Shown here: piece after piece, positions 1,774 to 50,777 of the stretch
Numbering within the stretch: position 1 is the first letter of the stretch
How the letters are laid out: every line of letters starts with the position of its first letter
From: Streptomyces lunaelactis
GTDB lineage: Bacteria > Actinomycetota > Actinomycetes > Streptomycetales > Streptomycetaceae
Assembly (NCBI RefSeq): GCF_003054555.1
Contig: NZ_CP026304.1
Span: 5,518,001-5,582,000, forward strand
Direction: 5' to 3'
Length of the DNA: 64,000 nucleotides
Position numbers and translations under genes: made by a program
Notes under the pieces: generated by a model
What the model was told of the DNA's origin: nothing
The model's database searches: none
Seen by the model: the letters and a program-made list of their open reading frames with translations, nothing else

Positions 1774-3318
1774 ATGCGGACATTTTCTGACAAAGTGGCG
1801 ATTCGGCGAGGTGTACTACGGTCCCTCATCCCCGCCCCCTCGCCGGAACCCGGATCCCGCCCGCTGCCGCTTCCCGCCGCCCTCCTCCTGGGCTGGGCGG
1901 CGCTCTTCCTGCTCTACGCCACCGTCGCCGTACGCCGCCACACGCTGCTCCGCACCACCGGTTACGACCTCGGCATCTTCGAACAGGCCGTACGCGCCTA
2001 CTCCCAATTCCGGGCGCCCATCGTCCCGTTGCGCGGTGACCACTTCAATCTGCTCGGCGACCACTTCCACCCCGCGCTCGCCGTCCTCGCCCCCCTCTAC
2101 CGCCTCTGGCCGTCCCCCCTCTGCCTCCTCCTCGCCCAGTCGGCGCTGCTCGCCCTCGCCGTCGTACCGCTCGCCCGCTGGGCCCTGCGGGAGCTCGGCC
2201 GCCGCCCGGCGCACGTCATCGCCGTCGGCTACGGCCTGAGCTGGGGCATCGCATCGGCCGCCGCCTTCGACTTCCACGAGGTCGCGCTCGCCGTACCGCT
2301 GCTCTCCTTCGCCCTGGAGGCCCTCGGCCGCCGACGCTTCGGCCCCGCCGTCGCCTGGTCTGCCCCGCTGGTCCTGGTCAAGGAGGACCTGGGCCTCACG
2401 CTCGCCGCCCTCGGCTGCTACGTCGCCTGGAAGGGCCCGCGCCGCCTGGGCGTCGTCACCGCCGCGGCCGGTCTGCTCGCCTCCGCCGTCGAGATCAAGC
2501 TGCTGCTGCCCGCCTTCAACCCGGCGGGCGGATACGCGCACGGCGGCAATCTCGCCGAGGACACCCACAGCTCACTGCTCACCACCATCGCCTTCGCCCC
2601 GCTCGACGCGCTGCGCCCCGACATCAAGGCCATGACCCTCATCCTGGTCTTCGCCCCGTCGGCGCTGCTGGCGCTGCGCTCCCCGCTCGCGATCCTCGCC
2701 GTGCCCACGCTCGCCTGGCGGATGCTGTCGCAAGTCGGCTTCCACTGGGGCACGTCCTTCCACTACAGCGCCGTCCTGATGCCCATCGTCCTCGCCGGCC
2801 TCATCGACACGCTGCGGCACTGGCGCGGCACGGACCATCCGCTCGCCGCCCGCCATGTCCGCGCCTCGCTCGTCACCGTCCTCGCCGTGACGCTCGTCAT
2901 GCTGCCGTCGTTCCCCCTCGCCCAGGTGGCCCAGCGGGCCACCTGGCATACGACGCCCCACATCAAGGCGGCCCGCTCGCTGCTCGACCGGATCCCGGAC
3001 GGAGCGACGGTCGCCGCCTCCAACCGCTTTGTCCCGCAGCTCACTTCACGCTGCGAGGTCGTTCTCTTCCCGGCCTTCCCGGTCGACGCGCGGCTGTACG
3101 AGTACGACAAGACGCGGCTGCCCCGCCCCACGGCCGAGTGGATCATCCATGACCGCAGGGCGCCGGAGGCGTGGCCGTACCCCTCGGGCCACTGGCCCTA
3201 CCCGCCCGAGCAGCAGCAGGCCGAACTGGCCGCCGCGCAGGAGAAGTACGGCTATGTGCGCGTCGCCCGGCGCGACGGCATCACGCTGTTGCGCCTCAGG
3301 CATGAGGACCGACCGTGA
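1774..3318 (+). CDS. DUF2079 family integral membrane protein
   Basis: A 514-residue protein with about ten hydrophobic segments. The TTGYDLGIFEQAVRAYS stretch near residue 65 followed by HFNLLGDHFHP is characteristic of DUF2079, a family related in layout to membrane glycosyltransferases of the GT-C type; its activity is unknown. The ATG at 1774 is preferred because reading further upstream overlaps the cupin gene and gives an uncharacteristic Arg-rich stretch; a GTG at 1795 is also in frame. A soluble C-terminal part (about residues 415-514) follows the last membrane span. The gene overlaps the next, HxlR-like frame by 17 bases. Confidence 0.8.
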   Translation: MRTFSDKVAIRRGVLRSLIPAPSPEPGSRPLPLPAALLLGWAALFLLYATVAVRRHTLLRTTGYDLGIFEQAVRAYSQFRAPIVPLRGDHFNLLGDHFHPALAVLAPLYRLWPSPLCLLLAQSALLALAVVPLARWALRELGRRPAHVIAVGYGLSWGIASAAAFDFHEVALAVPLLSFALEALGRRRFGPAVAWSAPLVLVKEDLGLTLAALGCYVAWKGPRRLGVVTAAAGLLASAVEIKLLLPAFNPAGGYAHGGNLAEDTHSSLLTTIAFAPLDALRPDIKAMTLILVFAPSALLALRSPLAILAVPTLAWRMLSQVGFHWGTSFHYSAVLMPIVLAGLIDTLRHWRGTDHPLAARHVRASLVTVLAVTLVMLPSFPLAQVAQRATWHTTPHIKAARSLLDRIPDGATVAASNRFVPQLTSRCEVVLFPAFPVDARLYEYDKTRLPRPTAEWIIHDRRAPEAWPYPSGHWPYPPEQQQAELAAAQEKYGYVRVARRDGITLLRLRHEDRP

Positions 3319-42367: not shown

Positions 42368-42396
42368 TGTATTCCCGTGCTGACTTGGTGACCTGG
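42351..42396. repeat. Left copy of a direct repeat bracketing the accessory segment
   Basis: TTCCCGTGCTGACTTGGTG at 42372-42390 is identical to 50750-50768. Flanking bases also match (gagtcYgRccccttct before it, acctgg after it). The copy lies immediately downstream of ychF. See the finding on the bracketed segment. Confidence 0.75.
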
Positions 42397-42452
42397 GGGC
42401 GCCCCGTGGCGGGCGCCAGTGGTGTTCTGGTGAGCGGTTGAATGCAGATTGT

Positions 42453-42494
42453 TACTTTCATTGGACGCTTGATATTCTGCGCCCAATGAAAGTA
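42453..42494. promoter_or_regulatory. Inverted repeat over the start of the HTH-nucleotidyltransferase gene
   Basis: TACTTTCATTGG (42453-42464) and its exact complement CCAATGAAAGTA (42483-42494) flank an 18-base spacer. The second arm includes the ATG at 42486. A minus-10-like GATATT stands at 42471-42476 in the spacer, 10 bases before the ATG, so the mRNA is probably leaderless and the encoded HTH protein could block its own promoter. Confidence 0.7.
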
Positions 42495-43076
42495 TCGCCG
42501 AGTCTGCTGCCCATCCTCCGGTCCCGTATGCAAGGCGAGCTCCTCGCGCTCGTGCTCCTGCATCCGGAACGCGAGTACAGCATCACCGAACTAGCCGCTG
42601 ACGTCGGAGTGACGCCTACCGCTGTCCTGCGGGAGGTTGACCGGTTGGCCGACGGTGGCATCCTGACCGATCGGCGAGTGGGGCGCAGTCGCCTCGTCAA
42701 GGCTCGCACGGATACTCCGCTGTACCGTCCGCTGAGCGAGCTCATGTCTGTCTCTTTCGGCCCCGTGCCAGTGCTCACCGATGCGCTGGCGGGACTCGAA
42801 GGCGTGGAGCGCGCCTATATCTACGGCTCTTGGGCCGCTCGGTACAACGGTGAGCCGGGGCCGCCGCCTGCCGATGTGGATGTCCTCGTTGTGGGTGACC
42901 CCGATGCCGACGCGCTCTTCGACCTTGCCGAGGAGGCGTCCCGACGCCTGCGTCGTGAGGTCAACGTTCATCGGGTCTCCGTCGAGGCGTGGGAGGCCCG
43001 TACGGACGATCCGTTCCTCACCGGCGTTCGCGAACGTCCGCTGGTCCAGCTGAACCTTGACCTGGAGGCGCAATGA
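42486..43076 (+). CDS. Winged-HTH plus nucleotidyltransferase (MNT) protein, antitoxin candidate
   Basis: A 196-residue fusion. Residues about 1-85 are a winged helix (REYSITELAADVGVTPTAVL and LADGGILTDRRVGRSRLVKA). Residues about 100-196 are a minimal nucleotidyltransferase with IYGSWAARYNGE and the Asp-X-Asp of PADVDVLVVGDP. In MNT/HEPN systems the nucleotidyltransferase modifies and neutralises the HEPN ribonuclease. The stop overlaps the ATG of the HEPN gene by 4 bases. A long inverted repeat covers its start. A frame opening at 42438 is rejected since it lies in the promoter. Confidence 0.85.
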   Translation: MKVSPSLLPILRSRMQGELLALVLLHPEREYSITELAADVGVTPTAVLREVDRLADGGILTDRRVGRSRLVKARTDTPLYRPLSELMSVSFGPVPVLTDALAGLEGVERAYIYGSWAARYNGEPGPPPADVDVLVVGDPDADALFDLAEEASRRLRREVNVHRVSVEAWEARTDDPFLTGVRERPLVQLNLDLEAQ

Positions 43077-43378
43077 CGCGCTGGAACCAAGGGCGGTCGA
43101 CGGTTGACGCGCTCATCGCCAGTGGTGGGCTTGAACGCGTACCCGCTTCTCAGCAGGCCGCCGAAGCGGAACTGGTCCGGGCGCGCACGCATGTAGGCTC
43201 CGCGCGGCAGTTGGCGGCCACGGACCCGGAGGGTGCGTACACGCTGGCCTACGACGCCGCGCGCAGAGCGTTGGCCGCGGTATTGCAGAACCAGGGACTG
43301 CGCGCGACCAGTCGTGGTGGCCATACCGCCCGGAGCTCGTCCATGGCGACCCGCTGCTCGAGGGCTTCGGCAACGTAG
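43073..43378 (+). pseudogene. HEPN toxin gene, 3' part replaced
   Basis: The frame opens at an ATG overlapping the MNT stop (ATGA). Its first about 83 residues match HEPN proteins of this family (ERVPASQQAAEAELVRA, GAYTLAYDAARRALAAVLQN, LRATSRGGH). After Gly-Gly-His the reading becomes an Arg/Ser-rich stretch of about 18 residues and stops. The DNA there (43327-43404) is the reverse strand of another antitoxin gene. The C-terminal HEPN helix with the Rx4-6H ribonuclease motif is gone, so the toxin is probably inactive. The partner gene appears intact. Confidence 0.8.
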
Positions 43379-43404
43379 GCGGAGAAACCGCCCGGCCCGT
43401 CATG
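43327..43404 (-). pseudogene. Fragment of an antitoxin gene fused to the HEPN gene
   Basis: Read on the minus strand the fragment gives GPGGFSAYVAEALEQRVAMDELRAVW. The intact antitoxin at 48700-48951 has GPGGFSAYVAEALEQ and RVAMDKLREIV at its centre, so this is a 25-30 residue internal piece of a related gene. It has no start or stop and ends against the DyP gene. It shows that a rearrangement between two toxin-antitoxin loci took place here. Confidence 0.8.
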
Positions 43405-43405
43405 G

Positions 43406-45670
43406 TCAGCCGGTCAGTGACTTCCACATGGTGAGCGGGCGGTCCTCCACCGTGATCTGGTCCTCGTGAGCACTGCCGTCGCGGATCACGATGATCCGGT
43501 ACTTGTCCTGGTGGAACACCCAGAACAGGCTCAGGCCATTGATCCGCTGCATGTCCGGTACCGCGAGGAACTCGTCGACCCGCGTGATTCCGGCGAGCGA
43601 GCGCCACAGGTCGAGCCCGCGGTCCCCGCGTTCGAGGGCGTCCTGGTGCATCGCGCCGTCGGCGACCGAGATGAGACGGTATACCTGACGGCCCATCATC
43701 GTGTGGAACACCCAGTAGTAGCTCTTGCCGCCCACCCGCTGCATGTCGGGGACCGGCAGGAAGGCATCCACCCTTTCGATGCCGCTGAACGAGGCCCAGG
43801 CGGAGAGCTGGCGGTCCGGCAGGTCGATCGCACCGGCCTGCTCGGGCGGGAGCCCGGATTCCGCGCCGTCGGCGATCGAGATCCGCCGGTAGACCTGACG
43901 GCCCTCAGCGGTGTGGAACAGCCAGAACCGGCTGCGGCCGTTGATCCGCTGCTCGTCCGGTACCGGAAGGATCGCGTCGACCTTGGTCACCCCGGCGTAG
44001 CACGGCCAGGTGGTCAGCGGCCGGTCGGGGCGCTCGCGGACGTCCAGGTGCTCGTCGCCGTCGGCGATGGAGATGGTCCGGCAGACCGGGCCGACGCTGC
44101 CCGTTCCGTACGCCCAGTACCAGCTCTTGCCCTTGTCCCGCTGGAGGTCGGGGATGGGCAGGAAGGAATCCGTCGGGCGGACGTCGCTCGGCAGCTTGTC
44201 GGTGAGTCGGCCGTCGCCGAGGTGCCGCAGCGTGGTCAGCGACGGTACGAAGGCGTAGACCGACCCCTCGGTGGCGACGAACTGGCTCAGGCTCAGCTCG
44301 GTGGTGGTGCCGGGGGTCTCGTAGCTGACGGTGCCGGCGGCACCGACCATCGCGTCGGGGCCCGGCTTCTTGGGCCGGTTGGGCGGGAAGGCGGTGCTGT
44401 CGATCCAGGACTTCTGGATGAACTCGAACTGCTGCACAAGGTCCGACTGGTAGCAGACGAACAGGAGGCCGCGCGGCGAGTCGGGCCCGCCGGGCCCCTC
44501 CGAGGCGGGGTCGAACGGCGCGCCGTACGGGGCGCCGCGGCGGATGATCCGGCGGCGGTCCATCACCGGATTCTCGTCGAGCGGAGGGTGTCCGGGCTCT
44601 TCCTGCAGTCCGTCCCGGGGGTTGGACTTGCGCAGGTGCGAGAAGAGCGGGGTGGTGTAGCCCTCCGGGTCGTTACGGAAGCCGAAGTCGTTGTCCTCGC
44701 CGGCCAGGGCGCTGGAGGGCATGTCGGCGTTGGGGCACTTGGCAACCGGGGCGCCGGAGCGCCAGCGGCCGACGAAGCGGGCGGCCAGCCACTCGCTGGT
44801 CGCCTCCGCCGGTACCACCTTGGCCTTCTTGAGCACTTTCAGCTGGACGCCGACCTGTGCCCAGAAGCCCGGGACGTCCTGGGCGAGCCGACGCACCACC
44901 TGGAAGGTGCCGTTGCCGGCCCAGTCGGGTGCTTCGTGCGGCCCGCCGTCGACCCGGTCGTGACCGAGGACGAACTCTCCGGCCGGGATCAGCCGGGTGC
45001 CGTGCTTGCCCTTGACGTACTCGGGTTTGGCCGGGTCCGGCTCGTCGAAGCCGAGCACGCCGGGTTCGCTGACGCCGTCCTTGAAGCCGAAGTGCTCCTT
45101 GCCGCGGCGGGTGCCCGGCAGCGTGGCGCCGTTCTGCTGAAAGACGATCACGATCTTGGCTTGGGCGCATGCCTCGCGCTGCTCGGTGACCGCCGTGTGG
45201 AGGTCCTGAACGGTGTCGGAGGCGACGGTGAGGACGGCGTGGACGGTCTGGCCCTTGCCGTCGCCGAAGAGCCAGTTCTCCGGTGAGCTGTCGCCGGTGT
45301 CGCCCAGCGCCCGCTTGTCCGAGCCCTGCTTGAAGGCCTCCAGGCCGCTGCCCGCCTTGGCCGAGGGCAACGGGTCCTTGCCGGTCAGCTCCCGCAGCCC
45401 CTCGTACGTGAAGCTGACATTGAGCCACGTGGCCTTCAGTGCTTTCGGGTCATCGCCGCCCGAGGCCTCCCTGGCCTTGCGGAAGGCGGCGTTGAACGTC
45501 GCCACCTGTCTGGTGGTGGAGACTTGTGGTTCCAGTCGCTTGACCCAGGTCCGTGCCCGCGCCGCGTCCTCGAACTTGAGGAACAGCAGCGTCATCTGGT
45601 CCTTCTTGAAGCCCGCGATCACATCGCCCTGGATGTCGTCGCTCTCACGCAGTTTCAGATCGTTCGGCAT
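43406..45670 (-). CDS. DyP-type peroxidase with a C-terminal four-repeat domain
   Basis: A 754-residue protein, much longer than ordinary DyP peroxidases (300-450). The first about 455 residues are the DyP domain with the haem-site motif FGFKDGVSEPGV and, later, RRIIRRGAPYGAPFD and FVCYQSDLVQQFEFIQKSW. Residues about 500-754 hold four tandem repeats of 57-70 residues sharing VDAFLPVPDxQR, GKSYYWVFHT, YRxISIADG and DRxLxxWxSLxGI. No signal peptide is visible. The enzyme oxidises substrates with hydrogen peroxide; it is divergent from a secreted copper-radical oxidase that produces hydrogen peroxide. Confidence 0.88.
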   Translation of the reverse strand: MPNDLKLRESDDIQGDVIAGFKKDQMTLLFLKFEDAARARTWVKRLEPQVSTTRQVATFNAAFRKAREASGGDDPKALKATWLNVSFTYEGLRELTGKDPLPSAKAGSGLEAFKQGSDKRALGDTGDSSPENWLFGDGKGQTVHAVLTVASDTVQDLHTAVTEQREACAQAKIVIVFQQNGATLPGTRRGKEHFGFKDGVSEPGVLGFDEPDPAKPEYVKGKHGTRLIPAGEFVLGHDRVDGGPHEAPDWAGNGTFQVVRRLAQDVPGFWAQVGVQLKVLKKAKVVPAEATSEWLAARFVGRWRSGAPVAKCPNADMPSSALAGEDNDFGFRNDPEGYTTPLFSHLRKSNPRDGLQEEPGHPPLDENPVMDRRRIIRRGAPYGAPFDPASEGPGGPDSPRGLLFVCYQSDLVQQFEFIQKSWIDSTAFPPNRPKKPGPDAMVGAAGTVSYETPGTTTELSLSQFVATEGSVYAFVPSLTTLRHLGDGRLTDKLPSDVRPTDSFLPIPDLQRDKGKSWYWAYGTGSVGPVCRTISIADGDEHLDVRERPDRPLTTWPCYAGVTKVDAILPVPDEQRINGRSRFWLFHTAEGRQVYRRISIADGAESGLPPEQAGAIDLPDRQLSAWASFSGIERVDAFLPVPDMQRVGGKSYYWVFHTMMGRQVYRLISVADGAMHQDALERGDRGLDLWRSLAGITRVDEFLAVPDMQRINGLSLFWVFHQDKYRIIVIRDGSAHEDQITVEDRPLTMWKSLTG

Positions 45671-46046
45671 GCTCTCTCCCGGCGGATCGGCCCGCCCGGT
45701 AGTTGCGGACTGTAATCGCCACTATACGTAATGTAGTCATGAAGATACGGAGCGTAGCCAGGCGTTTCCGGTGATCGGGCTGCCCGACACCCGCCCGGGG
45801 AGCCGGGTTCCCCCATCGGTCCCCCTGTGCCACACGGCTGCTGAGGTGCTCTCAGATGGCAGGGCTCACCCACCTGCTGCCCTCGGCGCGACATCGCGCA
45901 TGCTGTGACGCAAGACTGATACCCGTCACTGTGCGTGAACGGGGACCGCGCCACCGCGGCCTCTCCCTCGGCCGTCGTCCCGTCGGAGCCGGTGACCTGC
46001 GCTCGCTCTCTGTCCCCTGCGCAGCTCTCCCTCCCGAAGGAGTCGT
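45671..46046. promoter_or_regulatory. Divergent promoter region between DyP peroxidase and copper oxidase genes
   Basis: No gene is supported in these 376 bases. At 45721-45737 an A/T-rich near-palindrome (actatacgtaatgtagt) contains, on the minus strand, TATAGT as a candidate minus-10 for the peroxidase gene, 50 bases before its start. The oxidase start at 46047 has AAGGAG 5-10 bases upstream. A shared regulator could control both genes from here. Confidence 0.4.
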
Positions 46047-47972
46047 ATGTCCCGCACGAATCCTCCCGTGACCGCACGTCGACGACTCGCCACGGCGATC
46101 TCGGTCTGCGCCGTCACCGCGATGGCCGTATCCACGGCCCTGGCGGCTGCCGGCCCGGTACTCGCACACCCCGGTCACGGAGATCGCGGCGAGGACTTCC
46201 CGGCCGCCCCCGCCTCCCGGGCCGCGACCGCTCCGATCAAGGCCGACCCGGACGAGACGGCGGCGCTCGGCAAGGAGCACGCAGAGGAGCACGCCCGGAC
46301 CAGGATGGCGATCGCCGGCGTCGGGGAGTACCCGCAGACCACCCGGACCGAGCGGCTCAAATCGCTGACCGACTCGCAGGCCACGGGCAATGCCGCCTTC
46401 GATGCCGCCGAGTTCGGCAGGTTCCGGGACTACTTCCAGTCCCCGGACTTCGCGGCCCACATCGCGATGCTCCCCACCGGCAAGGTGCTGCTGTTCTCCT
46501 TCGAACGGATCGAGACCAACCCGCAGAAGGAGCCCGCGCCCACCGACACCATCGGCAAGGAGAACGCCGGCCGCGCTTTCCTCTGGGATCCGAAGCTCGG
46601 CACCGGCCCCACGGCGTTCAAGGAGGTAAAGCCGCCGGTCGTCAACATGCCCGACGGCAAGAACGAGCCCCGCCCGGCCCCGTTCTTCTGCGCCGGCCAC
46701 TCCTACCTGCCGAACGGGATGCTCGGCGTGTTCGGCGGCAACCTCGGCGGCAACGGCGGCAGCGGTGCCAAGCTGTCGCTGGTCTTCGACCCCTGGCAGG
46801 AGGAGTGGTACCTGAACCAGGACATGGCGGTCGGCCGCTGGTACCCGTCCGTGGTCACCGGGGCCGACGGGCGGCAGGTGATCATGTCCGGCCAGTCGGA
46901 GCTCGGCTGGGGCACCCCCACCTCGATCGTGGAACGCTTCCCCGCCCAGAGCGTCCCGGTGCCCGTCGACAAGACGGCCAAGCCGATCGGGTGGCCGGTG
47001 GAACGCCTCAAGACCGAAGCCCCGTTCAAGTGGGACTATCCGCACCTGTTCTCGCTGCGCGACGGGAAGATCTACGGTCTCGGCCGTGCCTCGGACCAGC
47101 AGTGGCTCTTCGACACCCTCAGCGACACCAAGAGCGACCTGCCGCCCCGCCCGGACGGCAAGAAGCGCAACTACGGCTCCGCCGTCCCGCTGCCGGCCGG
47201 CTTCAGGGGCCCCGACTCGGTTCTGGTCCTCGGCGGCGACCGCGACGACCCGAACACCTACCGCTTGGCCGGCGGCAAGTGGGCCACTGAGAAGCCCCGC
47301 GCCTTCGGTCGCACCCAGGACGACACCCTGCTCCTGCCGAACGGGAACCTGCTCACCGTCAACGGGGCCTTCGACATCCGCGACTACGGCAACGGCGACA
47401 AAAACCCCAACGCCGACCTGAAGTACCGCCAGGTCGAACTGCGCGACGAGAACGGGGACTGGAAGCTCGGCCCCGCTCAGCGACTGCCGCGCGGCTACCA
47501 CTCCAACGCCGTAGTGCTCCCGGACGGCCGGATCATGATCACCGGCGACGAGCTCCAGCAGCTCGCCAACGACCCCGACATCACCGACAGCATGAACGGC
47601 AGCATCGAGATCTACGAGCCGGCCTACCTCCACCAGGGCAGCCGCCCCAGTCTCGGCCTGATCTTCAACCCCAGCGTCGGCTACGACGAGAAGATCACGG
47701 TGAGCACCAATACCCCCAACGACGTCACCCGCGCCGTCCTGCTGGCTCCGACCACCGCGACCCACTCGGTCAATACCAGCCAGCGTCACCTCGAGCTGCG
47801 CATCAAGAGCCGCAGTGGCAACTTCCTGGAGCTCCAGGCCCCGCCGTCCGCCGCTGCGGCCCCGCCCGGCCACTACATGCTCTTCCTCCTCAACGAGGAG
47901 GGCGCGCCGAGTGCGGCAGGCTGGGTCCAGCTCAAGCCCCCCACGGCCGGTGCCACACGCGGCAAGCCGTAG
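46047..47972 (+). CDS. Secreted copper-radical oxidase (galactose oxidase/GlxA-like)
   Basis: A 641-residue exported protein with a signal peptide (RRRL, hydrophobic stretch, cleavage near residue 40) and a HPGHG stretch after it. The Kelch-type propeller carries FFCAGHSYLPNGMLGVFGGN (the Cys that crosslinks to a Tyr in this family), GRWYPSVVTGADG, and PRGYHSNAVVLPDGRIMITG with the copper-binding Tyr-His. The C-terminal DUF1929 domain has ATTHSVNTSQRHLEL with the other His ligand. It should oxidise alcohols or aldehydes to release hydrogen peroxide. In S. lividans a GlxA-type oxidase and a DyP peroxidase (DtpA) work together. Confidence 0.87.
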   Translation: MSRTNPPVTARRRLATAISVCAVTAMAVSTALAAAGPVLAHPGHGDRGEDFPAAPASRAATAPIKADPDETAALGKEHAEEHARTRMAIAGVGEYPQTTRTERLKSLTDSQATGNAAFDAAEFGRFRDYFQSPDFAAHIAMLPTGKVLLFSFERIETNPQKEPAPTDTIGKENAGRAFLWDPKLGTGPTAFKEVKPPVVNMPDGKNEPRPAPFFCAGHSYLPNGMLGVFGGNLGGNGGSGAKLSLVFDPWQEEWYLNQDMAVGRWYPSVVTGADGRQVIMSGQSELGWGTPTSIVERFPAQSVPVPVDKTAKPIGWPVERLKTEAPFKWDYPHLFSLRDGKIYGLGRASDQQWLFDTLSDTKSDLPPRPDGKKRNYGSAVPLPAGFRGPDSVLVLGGDRDDPNTYRLAGGKWATEKPRAFGRTQDDTLLLPNGNLLTVNGAFDIRDYGNGDKNPNADLKYRQVELRDENGDWKLGPAQRLPRGYHSNAVVLPDGRIMITGDELQQLANDPDITDSMNGSIEIYEPAYLHQGSRPSLGLIFNPSVGYDEKITVSTNTPNDVTRAVLLAPTTATHSVNTSQRHLELRIKSRSGNFLELQAPPSAAAAPPGHYMLFLLNEEGAPSAAGWVQLKPPTAGATRGKP

Positions 47973-48307
47973 GCCACCGACGAGACGGCTTGGCGGGAGG
48001 AAACCGGGTCCTGGCAAACGGGCGGCGGTCCGGCCAGTCCGCAGACAGTCCGCAGGGCAGCCGTAAACGCCCGTCGCAGGCCAACGCAGCCAAACGGGCA
48101 AATGCCTGGTCAGGGCCCTGAGCGGGGCTCCGCCGCAGGTCAGGAATGGGCCGCAGACATTCCGCTTCCACGTCTGACGTTCCATCAAACGTGGCGCCTG
48201 GCCCGCTTGCTGGCGGGTCGGGCGCAGGTGCCTGTCCGCGGGGAGTCCTCGTCCGCAAAGTGCTGTGGCTGACGGCCGACCTGGTTGGCGTGGCTGTGGT
48301 CGGCGCC
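47973..48307. other. Intergenic region without a recognised gene
   Basis: About 335 bases between the copper oxidase stop and the 3' end of the PIN toxin gene. There is a CCCGC/GCGGG hairpin near 48210 that could end either convergent transcript. Otherwise nothing is recognised; the short frames here have no ribosome binding site. Confidence 0.5.
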
Positions 48308-48700
48308 TCAGACCTTGACGACCTCTACGGAAGGGCCGCACAGGAGCGTCAGGTCCTCGGGGTCGGAAGTGAGGACGGTGACCGGCTGGGGCGCGTTGCG
48401 GGCGATGACGGCGAAGGCGGCGTCGATGGCGTACTTGTGGCCGTGGAGACGATGGGCGCGAAGGAGGGTGGCGGCTTCGTCGGTGACCGCTCTGGTGACG
48501 TCGTGAACGTCGACGCGGGAGAGGACCCACTTGATGCGGGCCGGGTGGATCCGCTCGTAATCGGCCTCAAGAGTGGTCATGGCGCTGGTGGCCACGCGGA
48601 TACCTTCCTCTGCTGCCGCCTGGACCAGCGCTACGACGGTGCGGTCCTTGCGGTAGAGCTTGGAGAGTCCTTCGCTGTCGAGCAGCAGGGTGCCGGGCAT
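48308..48700 (-). CDS. PIN-domain toxin (VapC-type)
   Basis: A 130-residue PIN nuclease. LLLDSEGLSKLYR contains the first acidic residue, TSAMTTLEADYER the Glu, and KYAIDAAFAVIARN and TSDPEDLTLL the later Asp residues, as in VapC toxins that cleave tRNA or rRNA. Its ATG overlaps the stop of the antitoxin gene by one base (TGATG). The pair is complete and probably functional. It lies in the accessory segment bracketed by direct repeats. Confidence 0.88.
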   Translation of the reverse strand: MPGTLLLDSEGLSKLYRKDRTVVALVQAAAEEGIRVATSAMTTLEADYERIHPARIKWVLSRVDVHDVTRAVTDEAATLLRAHRLHGHKYAIDAAFAVIARNAPQPVTVLTSDPEDLTLLCGPSVEVVKV

Positions 48701-48951
48701 CAGGCGGCGGCACCGCCGACCTGTCGGTGGTCATGGCGCAGCAGCGCGCGGGCGGCCTCGACCTCCTCGCGGGTGAGCTCGTCATTGTCGGTCTCGAAGT
48801 CGGCGACGATCTCCCGAAGCTTGTCCATGGCGACCCGTTGTTCCAGGGCTTCGGCAACGTAGGCGGAGAAGCCACCGGGCCCGACATGGGCGCGTACGGC
48901 CTCGGCAAGGTCCTCGGGCAGGCTGATGGAGTACTTTCTGCTACTGCTCAT
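48700..48951 (-). CDS. Antitoxin of the PIN toxin pair
   Basis: An 83-residue protein opening MSSSRKYSISLPEDLAEAV, a ribbon-helix-helix DNA-binding start, followed by GPGGFSAYVAEALEQRVAM and an acidic C-terminal tail (ADFETDNDELTREEVEAARA) that probably wraps the toxin. It should repress its own promoter; a TAGGAT at 48958-48963 on the minus strand is a possible minus-10. A fragment of a related gene is found at 43327-43404. The longer frame from 49074 is rejected. Confidence 0.85.
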   Translation of the reverse strand: MSSSRKYSISLPEDLAEAVRAHVGPGGFSAYVAEALEQRVAMDKLREIVADFETDNDELTREEVEAARALLRHDHRQVGGAAA

Positions 48952-49111
48952 GGTGTCGATCCTACCGACGGTCGTAACTCTGTGGGTGCGCATGGCAGTG
49001 CGGGGGAGGCGGCTCGCCTCGGAGCGCGAGCTGATCGATCCCGACCATCGGCGGTCGGTTTCACCACTACGCACTGGACGGGGTGACCGCTTGGACGTCG
49101 CGTGAAGCTGA

Positions 49112-50062
49112 TCAGATCTGCCTGCTCTCGGTCCACGCTCGGAGTTTCTCCGGGTTGCGGACCGCCCAGATGCGGGTGATGCGGTCTCCGGCGAGGCCGA
49201 AGGCGGCCACGGTCACGGTGACACCGGTGTGCTGGGCGACCAGGCCGGGCCGGCCGTTGACCGTCCGCTCCAGGAGCGTCAGTCCAGGGGCCTTGTCGGC
49301 GATGTGGATCAGGTACTCGGCGATACGCCTGCTGCCCACGACCGGGCGCAGGACGGTGCCGACCAAGCCACCGCCGTCGGCGACCATCGCGGCGTCGGGG
49401 TCGAGGAGGCCGACCAGGGCCTCGATGTCCCTGGCCTCCCACGCCTCCTTGAAGTGCCGCACCAGACCGGCCTGCCCGGCCGCCGGAACCGCCGGAGCCT
49501 GCGCGGCCCGGATGCGCCGACGGGCCGAGGACGCCAGCTGCCGGCAGGCCGCGGGCGTCCGGCCGACGATCTCGGCGACCTCGGCGAAGGGGTAGCGGAA
49601 GACGTCGTGCAGGATGAACGCCACACGTTCGGCCGGCGTCATCGACTCCAGTACGACGAGGAAGGCCATGGTCACCGACTCGTCCAGGGTGATCCGGTCG
49701 GCGGGGTCGGCCGGTTCGGCTCTGCCGCCGGCCCGCCCGCTGATCCACTCCGTACGGTCGGGCAGCGGCTCGGGTATCCATGCGCCGACGTAGCGCTCGC
49801 GCCGGGCCCGCGCCGAGCCGAGCACGTCCAGGCAGACGCGGCCGGCCACCGTCGTCAGCCAGGCGCCGGGCGACGCGATGTCCTCCTGCTGCTGCCCTGA
49901 CATCGCGTACCAGCGGGCGTAGGTCTCCTGCACGGCGTCCTCGGCCTCGGTCAGCGAACCGAGCAGCCGGTAGGCAAGATTGATCAGCTGGCGCCGCTCG
50001 CCGACGATCGTGTTCAGGCCGGGCTCGGACCGGTCGTGCGCCGGCTCGGACGGTGTACTCAT
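49112..50062 (-). CDS. ECF41-type RNA polymerase sigma factor
   Basis: A 316-residue sigma factor. Region 2 is AYRLLGSLTEAEDAVQETYA with WLTTVAGRVCLDVL; region 4 is LESMTPAERVAFILHDVFRY and FAEVAEIVGRTPAACRQL. A SnoaL-like C-terminal domain follows (about 205-316) and ends with the ECF41 motif IWAVRNPEKLRAW. In this group the C-terminal domain acts as a built-in regulator in place of an anti-sigma factor. Divergent from a small membrane protein gene; a palindrome lies between them. Confidence 0.92.
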   Translation of the reverse strand: MSTPSEPAHDRSEPGLNTIVGERRQLINLAYRLLGSLTEAEDAVQETYARWYAMSGQQQEDIASPGAWLTTVAGRVCLDVLGSARARRERYVGAWIPEPLPDRTEWISGRAGGRAEPADPADRITLDESVTMAFLVVLESMTPAERVAFILHDVFRYPFAEVAEIVGRTPAACRQLASSARRRIRAAQAPAVPAAGQAGLVRHFKEAWEARDIEALVGLLDPDAAMVADGGGLVGTVLRPVVGSRRIAEYLIHIADKAPGLTLLERTVNGRPGLVAQHTGVTVTVAAFGLAGDRITRIWAVRNPEKLRAWTESRQI

Positions 50063-50135
50063 GGTCGCGGCCGCTCCCTGGTTCTTCTCGTCCGCTTCCG
50101 TCCCTCCCCGCTACGGCGAAACACCGCACTGGACT

Positions 50136-50158
50136 GTGAGGTTGACGCTTCACCTCAC
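50136..50158. promoter_or_regulatory. Palindrome between the sigma factor and membrane protein genes
   Basis: GTGAGGT (50136-50142) and ACCTCAC (50152-50158) form a 7-bp perfect inverted repeat with a 9-base spacer, central in the 172-base divergent gap. ECF41 factors usually control a neighbouring gene, but I could not match their published promoter consensus here, so the site may bind a different protein. Confidence 0.45.
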
Positions 50159-50234
50159 ATTTCGCGGGCCCGCGTCGTCGGACTGCCGAGAGGCTACCGA
50201 TCCATCGCCGCGAGGCAGAAGCGAGGACCACATC

Positions 50235-50642
50235 ATGGCCGTACAGACGACGACAGCACCGGGCAGGTTCACGTTCCTGCACGTCGCGATCGCCTTGCAG
50301 ACCTTGGCCCTCTTCTTCCAGGGGGTCACCGCCGGAATGCTGCTGTCCTCGTCCCTCGGCGCGGTACTGCACGACGTCGGATCGCGCGTGATGTACGGCG
50401 CGTCGATGTTGTACGTGCTCGCCGCGATCTTGGCATGGCGTCCGGGCGGCGGGTCGCCACGCCCCATCCTGTACGCGTCCGGCTTCCTCGTGCTCGCCTC
50501 GGTGCAGGTGGTCCTTGGCATCGCGCACATACCGTCGCTCCATGTCCCCCTGGGCATCCTGATGTTCGGCCTGAGCGTGCTGGCACTGGGCCAGGCGCTG
50601 TCCACCGCCCCGGGCGTCAACTCACTGCGACGTACCCCGTGA
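50235..50642 (+). CDS. Four-helix integral membrane protein of unknown function
   Basis: A 135-residue protein with four hydrophobic segments (about 15-38, 48-68, 78-98 and 100-122). The first is FLHVAIALQTLALFFQGVTAG. No enzyme motif is seen. ATG at 50235 follows GAGGA. Its position opposite an ECF41 sigma factor gene suggests it may be one of that factor's targets. A perfect hairpin follows 60 bases after the stop. Confidence 0.7.
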   Translation: MAVQTTTAPGRFTFLHVAIALQTLALFFQGVTAGMLLSSSLGAVLHDVGSRVMYGASMLYVLAAILAWRPGGGSPRPILYASGFLVLASVQVVLGIAHIPSLHVPLGILMFGLSVLALGQALSTAPGVNSLRRTP

Positions 50643-50702
50643 CGCCCTACCAAGCACCGAGCCGTTTTCACGACTCCCCATCACCTTGCTGCTTCGAGTC
50701 GT

Positions 50703-50722
50703 GGGGGCGCGGCGGCGCCCCC
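50703..50722 (+). terminator. Perfect 8-bp hairpin terminator
   Basis: GGGGGCGC (50703-50710) pairs with GCGCCCCC (50715-50722) around a four-base loop. It ends the membrane protein gene. Confidence 0.7.
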
Positions 50723-50729
50723 TGGAAGA

Positions 50730-50777
50730 TGAGTCCGGCCCCTTCTTCGTTCCCGTGCTGACTTGGTGCTGACCTGG
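50730..50777. repeat. Right copy of the direct repeat bracketing the accessory segment
   Basis: TTCCCGTGCTGACTTGGTG at 50750-50768 repeats 42372-42390 exactly. The wider match runs over about 46 bases with few differences and one three-base insertion. It lies 10 bases before the 3' end of the Uma2 gene. Confidence 0.75.

Follow-up and report, generated by a model that had tools for sequence, protein, structure and literature searches.

Introduction

Copper-radical oxidases make hydrogen peroxide (H2O2), and DyP peroxidases use it. Here we describe a divergent pair of genes for one putative enzyme of each kind in a 64,000-nucleotide stretch of Streptomyces lunaelactis DNA (contig NZ_CP026304.1, positions 5,518,001 to 5,582,000; hereafter the window). 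The closest published pair that we found is the Perox-AlcOx pair of Colletotrichum and Magnaporthe, in which, as in the window, genes for an oxidase and a heme peroxidase lie head to head, an arrangement conserved across species (PMC9770985). The Colletotrichum pair consists of facing genes for a class II peroxidase and a copper-radical alcohol oxidase, and the peroxidase is described as activating the oxidase through one-electron oxidation (PMC9770985). The two cases differ in several respects: the fungal class II enzyme belongs to the peroxidase-catalase superfamily, whereas that of the window is a DyP; both fungal partners are predicted to be secreted, whereas in the window a signal peptide is recognizable by eye in the oxidase and absent from the DyP; every fungus named has its two genes head to head, but the bacterial pair is either tandem or divergent; and the available text of that report does not mention a hemopexin-fold or lectin tail (PMC9770985).

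A functional dependence between a streptomycete copper-radical oxidase and a DyP is described for S. lividans, where GlxA maturation needs DtpA, which is proposed also to remove the H2O2 of GlxA (PMC4736821). The first-pass annotation of the window placed the new pair beside this one. The functional link that it invoked exists, but the likeness is loose: GlxA and DtpA are encoded in separate clusters, and DtpA lies in a copper-trafficking cluster and is exported by twin-arginine translocation (Tat), whereas the window genes are adjacent and their DyP carries no signal (PMC4736821). GlxA also represents a different oxidase subfamily, and the window genome encodes a GlxA and two Tat-type DyPs of its own. 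We regard the fungal pair as the nearer precedent. In white-rot fungi, glyoxal oxidase and lignin peroxidases couple a copper-radical oxidase to heme peroxidases via extracellular H2O2; that system is extracellular and fungal, and its peroxidases belong to families other than DyP (PMC4968546). SaDyP1 and SaDyP2 are streptomycete class V DyPs described as non-secreted; SaDyP1, at about 49.4 kDa with its tag, is too small to carry a propeller tail, and a linked oxidase is not mentioned in the available text (PMC8395514).

Already known, then, are fungal oxidase-peroxidase gene pairs and a functional GlxA-DtpA link in Streptomyces. Apparently new is a bacterial gene pair, spread within Streptomycetaceae, whose D-type DyP bears a hemopexin-fold or lectin tail; no bacterial DyP-oxidase pair, lectin-tailed DyP, or hemopexin-tailed DyP was found among the literature matches listed (titles and abstract openings, with partial coverage that takes in few subscription journals or preprints). 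The bacterial pair apparently arose independently of the fungal one.

A conserved oxidase-peroxidase gene pair in Streptomycetaceae

The pair is laid out in the window as follows:

43406..45670, minus strand: predicted D-type (class V) DyP peroxidase gene, 754 residues, without signal peptide
45671..46046: shared intergenic region of the divergent pair, 376 bp
46047..47972, plus strand: gene for a predicted secreted copper-radical oxidase, galactose/glyoxal-oxidase type, not GlxA, 641 residues

These gene positions bear out the first-pass description of a distinct DyP diverging from a distinct oxidase across a 376-bp gap. The main test named in that annotation, conservation of the pair in other genomes, was applied to a sample of 394 Streptomycetaceae genomes (L- and G-numbers below denote loci and genomes, respectively, in the comparison set), and came out clearly in favor of the pair. 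The DyP tail was found in 47 of these genomes, the oxidase in 76 (E-value 1e-60), and DyPs in 73 (E-value 1e-80); in 43 of the 47, the tail lies no more than 15 kb from the oxidase. DyP scores are bimodal with a gap, separating 61 places at 456 bits or above (close DyPs) from 17 at 323 bits or below. An oxidase lies within 1.8 kb, alignment edge to edge, of 50 of the 61 close DyPs (window included), versus none within 15 kb of the 17 lower-scoring ones; chance proximity can be rejected on this comparison. The 11 unlinked close DyPs include that of G026, where both genes lie near contig ends and adjacency cannot be judged. At genome level, the oxidase is present in 55 of the 58 genomes having a close DyP; the corresponding hypergeometric value (~9e-46) takes no account of relatedness and is not treated as a probability. 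In Streptomycetaceae, the pair is a conserved two-gene module. Eighteen of the 50 linked pairs are divergent, and so share the fungal-type head-to-head arrangement kept across species; in the remaining 32, the genes are in tandem and the oxidase comes first. One linked oxidase is decayed (G236).

Gene surroundings were compared over about 7-8 kb per side for 49 linked loci (L158, the fiftieth pair, is outside this count). Joining loci by at least two shared flank families gives 28 contexts, and by at least three gives 29; the number is approximate because open reading frames were called by a simple script based on third-position GC content (GC3). None of the window's flank families recurs at any of its eight nearest divergent relatives, while one group of 18 tandem loci does keep its flanks. 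Inherited synteny as the whole explanation is therefore rejected for many loci, though not for those 18. That the pair is kept across differing surroundings suggests that the two products probably work together.

Phylogenetic distances are consistent with this association. DyP and oxidase tree distances are correlated (Mantel Spearman 0.69 for 43 of the 50 pairs, with 0 of 2000 permutations as high; 0.96 within the nine window-type pairs), as expected of genes that are transferred or inherited jointly. The DyP tree unites the divergent arrangement in one clade of 19 rows with a support of 90 in the Shimodaira-Hasegawa-like approximate likelihood ratio test (SH-aLRT), one row of which (L111) lacks an adjacent oxidase; the oxidase tree splits it into two clades. 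Depending on the tree, the inversion is thus placed once or twice, respectively, both being quick trees with some long branches. Beyond the family, no spread of the oxidase subfamily through the class was found: at an E-value of 1e-50, it occurred in 2 of 276 genomes (the window's own and one other of its genus), and DyP relatives at 1e-40 were found in 22 of 276, again including the window's own.

Two blocks are conserved in the intergenic region:

45866..45871, plus strand: TCACCC block, identical in 9 of 9 aligned window-type intergenic regions
45914..45931, plus strand: (C/G)ACTGA-gap-GTCACTG block, lying upstream of the oxidase and retained at window-type loci

The second block is altered and shortened in L075 and L076. 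At two or fewer mismatches it occurs in 13 of 70 oxidase upstream regions, nine of them at window-type loci; no promoter motif common to all such oxidases was found. The conserved blocks are compatible with a putative shared control region of the pair.

Enzyme assignments

The catalytic part of the window DyP comprises the following features, with residues assigned by alignment to 2d3q, 4au9, and 7anv:

44219..45670, minus strand: DyP catalytic domain, residues 1-484
45077..45079, minus strand: codon of D198, catalytic Asp
44636..44638, minus strand: H345, proximal His
44540..44542, minus strand: R377, distal Arg

All three residues are intact in 69 of 69 DyP sequences, window included, and the modeled fold is a dimeric alpha+beta barrel near D-type structures. 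The window peroxidase is, by sequence, a D-type (class V) DyP for which heme binding and peroxidase activity are predicted. It is not a class I enzyme of the DtpA/EfeB kind, scoring 32.4 bits with TIGR01412 against a cut-off of 428.

Corresponding features of the oxidase, placed by alignment to galactose oxidase and the 4unm secreted protein (except for the signal peptide, recognized by eye), are:

46047..46166, plus strand: probable signal peptide, residues 1-40
46689..46691, plus strand: Cys215, partner of the expected Cys-Tyr cross-link
46842..46844, plus strand: Tyr266, expected cross-linked radical Tyr
47496..47501, plus strand: Tyr484-His485, copper ligands
47763..47765, plus strand: His573, copper ligand

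All five residues are present in 69 of 70 oxidase sequences, including that of the window, and the C-terminal GO-like E-set domain is recognized (PF09118, 77.9 bits; cut-off 25). The window oxidase is accordingly assigned to the AA5, or galactose-oxidase-type, copper-radical oxidases, with H2O2-forming activity predicted. Identity with GlxA (NF052501) was rejected, the window oxidase scoring 151.2 bits against a cut-off of 800, whereas the genome's own GlxA, encoded elsewhere, scores 1118.5 bits. Elsewhere in the genome there are also two TIGR01412-type (class I) DyPs with twin-arginine signals by eye; judged likewise by eye, one lies between efeO- and efeU-like frames and the other follows a CopD-like frame. 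Given this GlxA and these Tat-type DyPs, the window pair is an addition to the known system rather than a version of it.

Small genes with signal-like starts (by eye) often lie directly upstream of such oxidases, in divergent orientation. They fall into two families, one at 18 loci (L101-L104, L107, L109, L110, L122-L124, L126, L129, L134, L140, L142, L146-L148) and the other at nine (L125, L127, L130, L132, L133, L136, L137, L144, L145).

The predicted propeller tail and its replacements

The remainder of the window DyP is a C-terminal extension:

43406..44218, minus strand: DyP tail, residues 485-754, predicted four-bladed hemopexin-fold propeller

The propeller tail claimed at first pass is supported by structure prediction, which confidently gives a hemopexin fold with the four blades of a beta-propeller. 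Structural comparison used VIA-align with the Foldseek top 1000 as candidates; a whole-protein VIA search barely tested the tail. No Pfam family was matched at E-values up to 10 with HMMER filters on, and the tail is thus best described as having a hemopexin fold rather than as a member of the Pfam hemopexin family. Plant PA2-type hemopexin-fold albumins (PDB 6ix1, 3s18, 3oyo, 3lp9) show 13-14% identity to the tail in structural alignment; these are seed proteins, and their solved chains span about 225 residues and, unlike the DyP tail, are not joined to an enzyme domain.

In several related DyPs, a lectin-like region takes the place of the propeller. The bulb-type lectin domain PF01453 (cut-off 32.4 bits) was recognized in 3 of 8 such tails scanned, those of L117 (35.3 bits), L120 (32.7), and L159 (34.1); it falls below cut-off in L158, L154, and L157, and has no match in L139 and L151. 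Lectin-like stretches were noted by eye in L139, L149-L152, L154, and L156-L158, some of them scanned without a match, some sub-threshold, and some seen by eye alone. The L158 tail also has a sub-threshold match to the end of a lectin-like bacteriocin model. The DyPs of L118, L121, and L122 are tail-less. That a lectin takes the tail's place in related DyPs is the main reason for proposing that the propeller may bind sugar; it probably tethers the peroxidase to a sugar polymer.

Propeller repeats also occur without a DyP, behind a PLAT domain in L113 (7077-8399) and alone in L114 (4132-5010), L115 (6996-8111), and L116 (7989-9020). No Pfam family exceeded its cut-off for the repeats of L113-L115, which were scanned, and the repeats look like a domain family.

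Proposed function and alternatives

On balance, we consider it somewhat probable that the pair is a peroxide-linked two-gene module. The substrate of the secreted oxidase would be an alcohol or aldehyde, perhaps carried by a glycan, and its oxidation would yield H2O2; the D-type DyP would consume that H2O2 while held, probably by its propeller (or, in relatives, by a lectin), to a sugar polymer. The proposed H2O2 link is suggested by the enzyme families of both proteins.

Several observations weigh against this interpretation. Close DyPs are lacking at 35 of 85 oxidase places, and at 24 of the 26 of these that were inspected (about 8 kb each side, contig permitting), no class V-like DyP was detected in a search with the window DyP as query at an E-value of 1e-5, which a class I DyP could escape. 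DyP presence changes at least eight times on the oxidase tree, suggesting that the oxidase can do without this partner. Conversely, a close DyP lacks a linked oxidase at 11 of 61 places and any such oxidase in 3 of 58 genomes. Joining loci by a single shared flank family leaves 12 contexts. Finally, the two products may not meet: of the 44 propeller-tailed DyPs, 42 (the window's among them) were examined, and none showed an export signal, each lacking a hydrophobic stretch at its N-terminus (15-residue mean no higher than 1.09, or too short to contain one; L081 and L082 are outside the count, the script having found no motif), and S. avermitilis SaDyP1 and SaDyP2, also class V, are reported as not secreted in S. 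lividans (PMC8395514).

The compartment mismatch raised at first pass, a peroxidase with no visible signal, is thus real. The window DyP starts close before its barrel domain, and as no more than 29 open codons precede the IQGD motif, it cannot carry a signal peptide; a hidden upstream start with a signal is rejected on the same count. The oxidases of relatives, as looked over by eye, have signal peptides as in the window. Hitchhiker export of the DyP through a Tat signal on the oxidase is unsupported: in several propeller-DyP pairs, among them L077, L078, L101, and L102, the oxidases show no twin arginine by eye. A different picture appears in a side branch, where the DyPs of L118, L153, and L155 combine a 15-residue mean of 1.85-2.06 with a twin arginine, and those of L157 and L158 have, by eye, a similar Tat-like N-terminus; the L118 DyP adjoins an intact oxidase, that of L158 a decayed one. 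Judging from these N-termini, Tat export of the DyP is likely in the side branch alone. In the window branch, the DyP most likely stays cytoplasmic, meeting back-diffusing H2O2, or leaves by lysis or another route.

At L141 and L143, the other two of the 26 oxidase places inspected, a DyP of a more distant subfamily lies directly beside the oxidase, upstream on the same strand. At both loci, cslA-glxA-type genes converge on the window-type oxidase (L141 3626-11827, L143 6328-14173), GlxA being recognized by its Pfam domain at L141 and by a GlxA model match at L143, and the cellulose-synthase-like gene by Pfam at L141 and as the same family at L143. These neighbors hint at a hyphal-surface glycan.

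A rather unlikely alternative, proposed by analogy, is that the DyP acts mainly as an activator, withdrawing a single electron from the oxidase in its resting Cu(II) state to give the active tyrosyl-radical form, with H2O2 removal secondary. The fungal head-to-head Perox-AlcOx pair, whose gene layout the window shares, is reported to work in this way on the evidence of activity assays and electron paramagnetic resonance (PMC9770985), and a fungal glyoxal oxidase is described as reactivated most efficiently by a peroxidase together with its substrate (PMC10928124). Such activation needs protein contact, yet an export signal, seen by eye in the oxidase, is missing from the DyP. It is improbable that the DyP instead aids oxidase maturation, for example through the copper redox state, as proposed for DtpA and GlxA. 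Although GlxA maturation in S. lividans is reported to require DtpA (PMC4736821), DtpA is Tat-exported and encoded in a copper-trafficking cluster, whereas the window DyP is D-type and signal-less; no copper gene was recognized among the nine flank frames scanned around the window pair, two Tat-type class I DyPs are already available in the genome, and many such oxidases have no adjacent DyP. Very improbable is a small transferable cassette whose products serve unrelated processes: flanks do vary at most loci outside the group of 18, and one relative lacks the window segment at the corresponding site, but unless the pair is under selection it is difficult to account for the retention of just these two genes in about 28 contexts and two arrangements, and for the recurrence of the pairing where the DyP is lectin-tailed, tail-less, or (two genomes) from a different subfamily.

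A further reading is tentative, and we think it doubtful as a whole: a glycan-tethered DyP, with its lectin or hemopexin-fold tail, might both reactivate and feed on the secreted oxidase at the hyphal surface, the system having evolved independently of the fungal one, with DyP export by an unconventional route and the tail forming a new carbohydrate-binding family. Little is known of what bacterial DyPs work with in nature, and a partner recurring in about 28 contexts offers a handle on the role of the peroxidase. Separate origins in fungi and bacteria would point to a general need of copper-radical oxidases for a peroxidase, and the exchange of tail and lectin suggests how a peroxidase might be placed on a polymer, which could be useful in lignin or glycan chemistry.

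Genomic setting and related loci

The window pair lies inside an 8.4-kb accessory stretch that separates ychF from a Uma2 gene:

42391..50768: accessory segment containing the DyP-oxidase pair, missing between ychF and the Uma2 gene in the relative G648 (L177)
42372..42390 and 50750..50768: 19-nucleotide direct repeat, both copies identical in the window

In G648, the Uma2 gene directly follows ychF, with a single copy of the flanking sequence (L177, about 3150-3260) and no such stretch. At the ends of the stretch, a longer imperfect similarity surrounds the 19 nucleotides, and a hairpin-like sequence downstream of ychF adjoins the repeat-bounded segment. Within it, positions 42438-43375 hold a winged-helix and nucleotidyltransferase-like gene (Pfam matches below cut-off), followed, just before the DyP, by a short frame that by eye resembles a truncated HEPN-type partner and has no Pfam match.

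In one DyP of the window type (L112 7257-8378, in G195), an in-frame loss has removed most of the catalytic domain, leaving the start and tail in a product of 373 residues; no window-type oxidase lies within 15 kb of this remnant. More distant class V DyPs, of about 43% identity, occur at L161-L164. Frames near them resemble, by eye, a thiamine-diphosphate oxidase (about 610-630 residues) and, at L161 and L164, an amine-oxidase-type flavoenzyme (~710 residues); these loci are perhaps a second kind of oxidase-peroxidase neighborhood.
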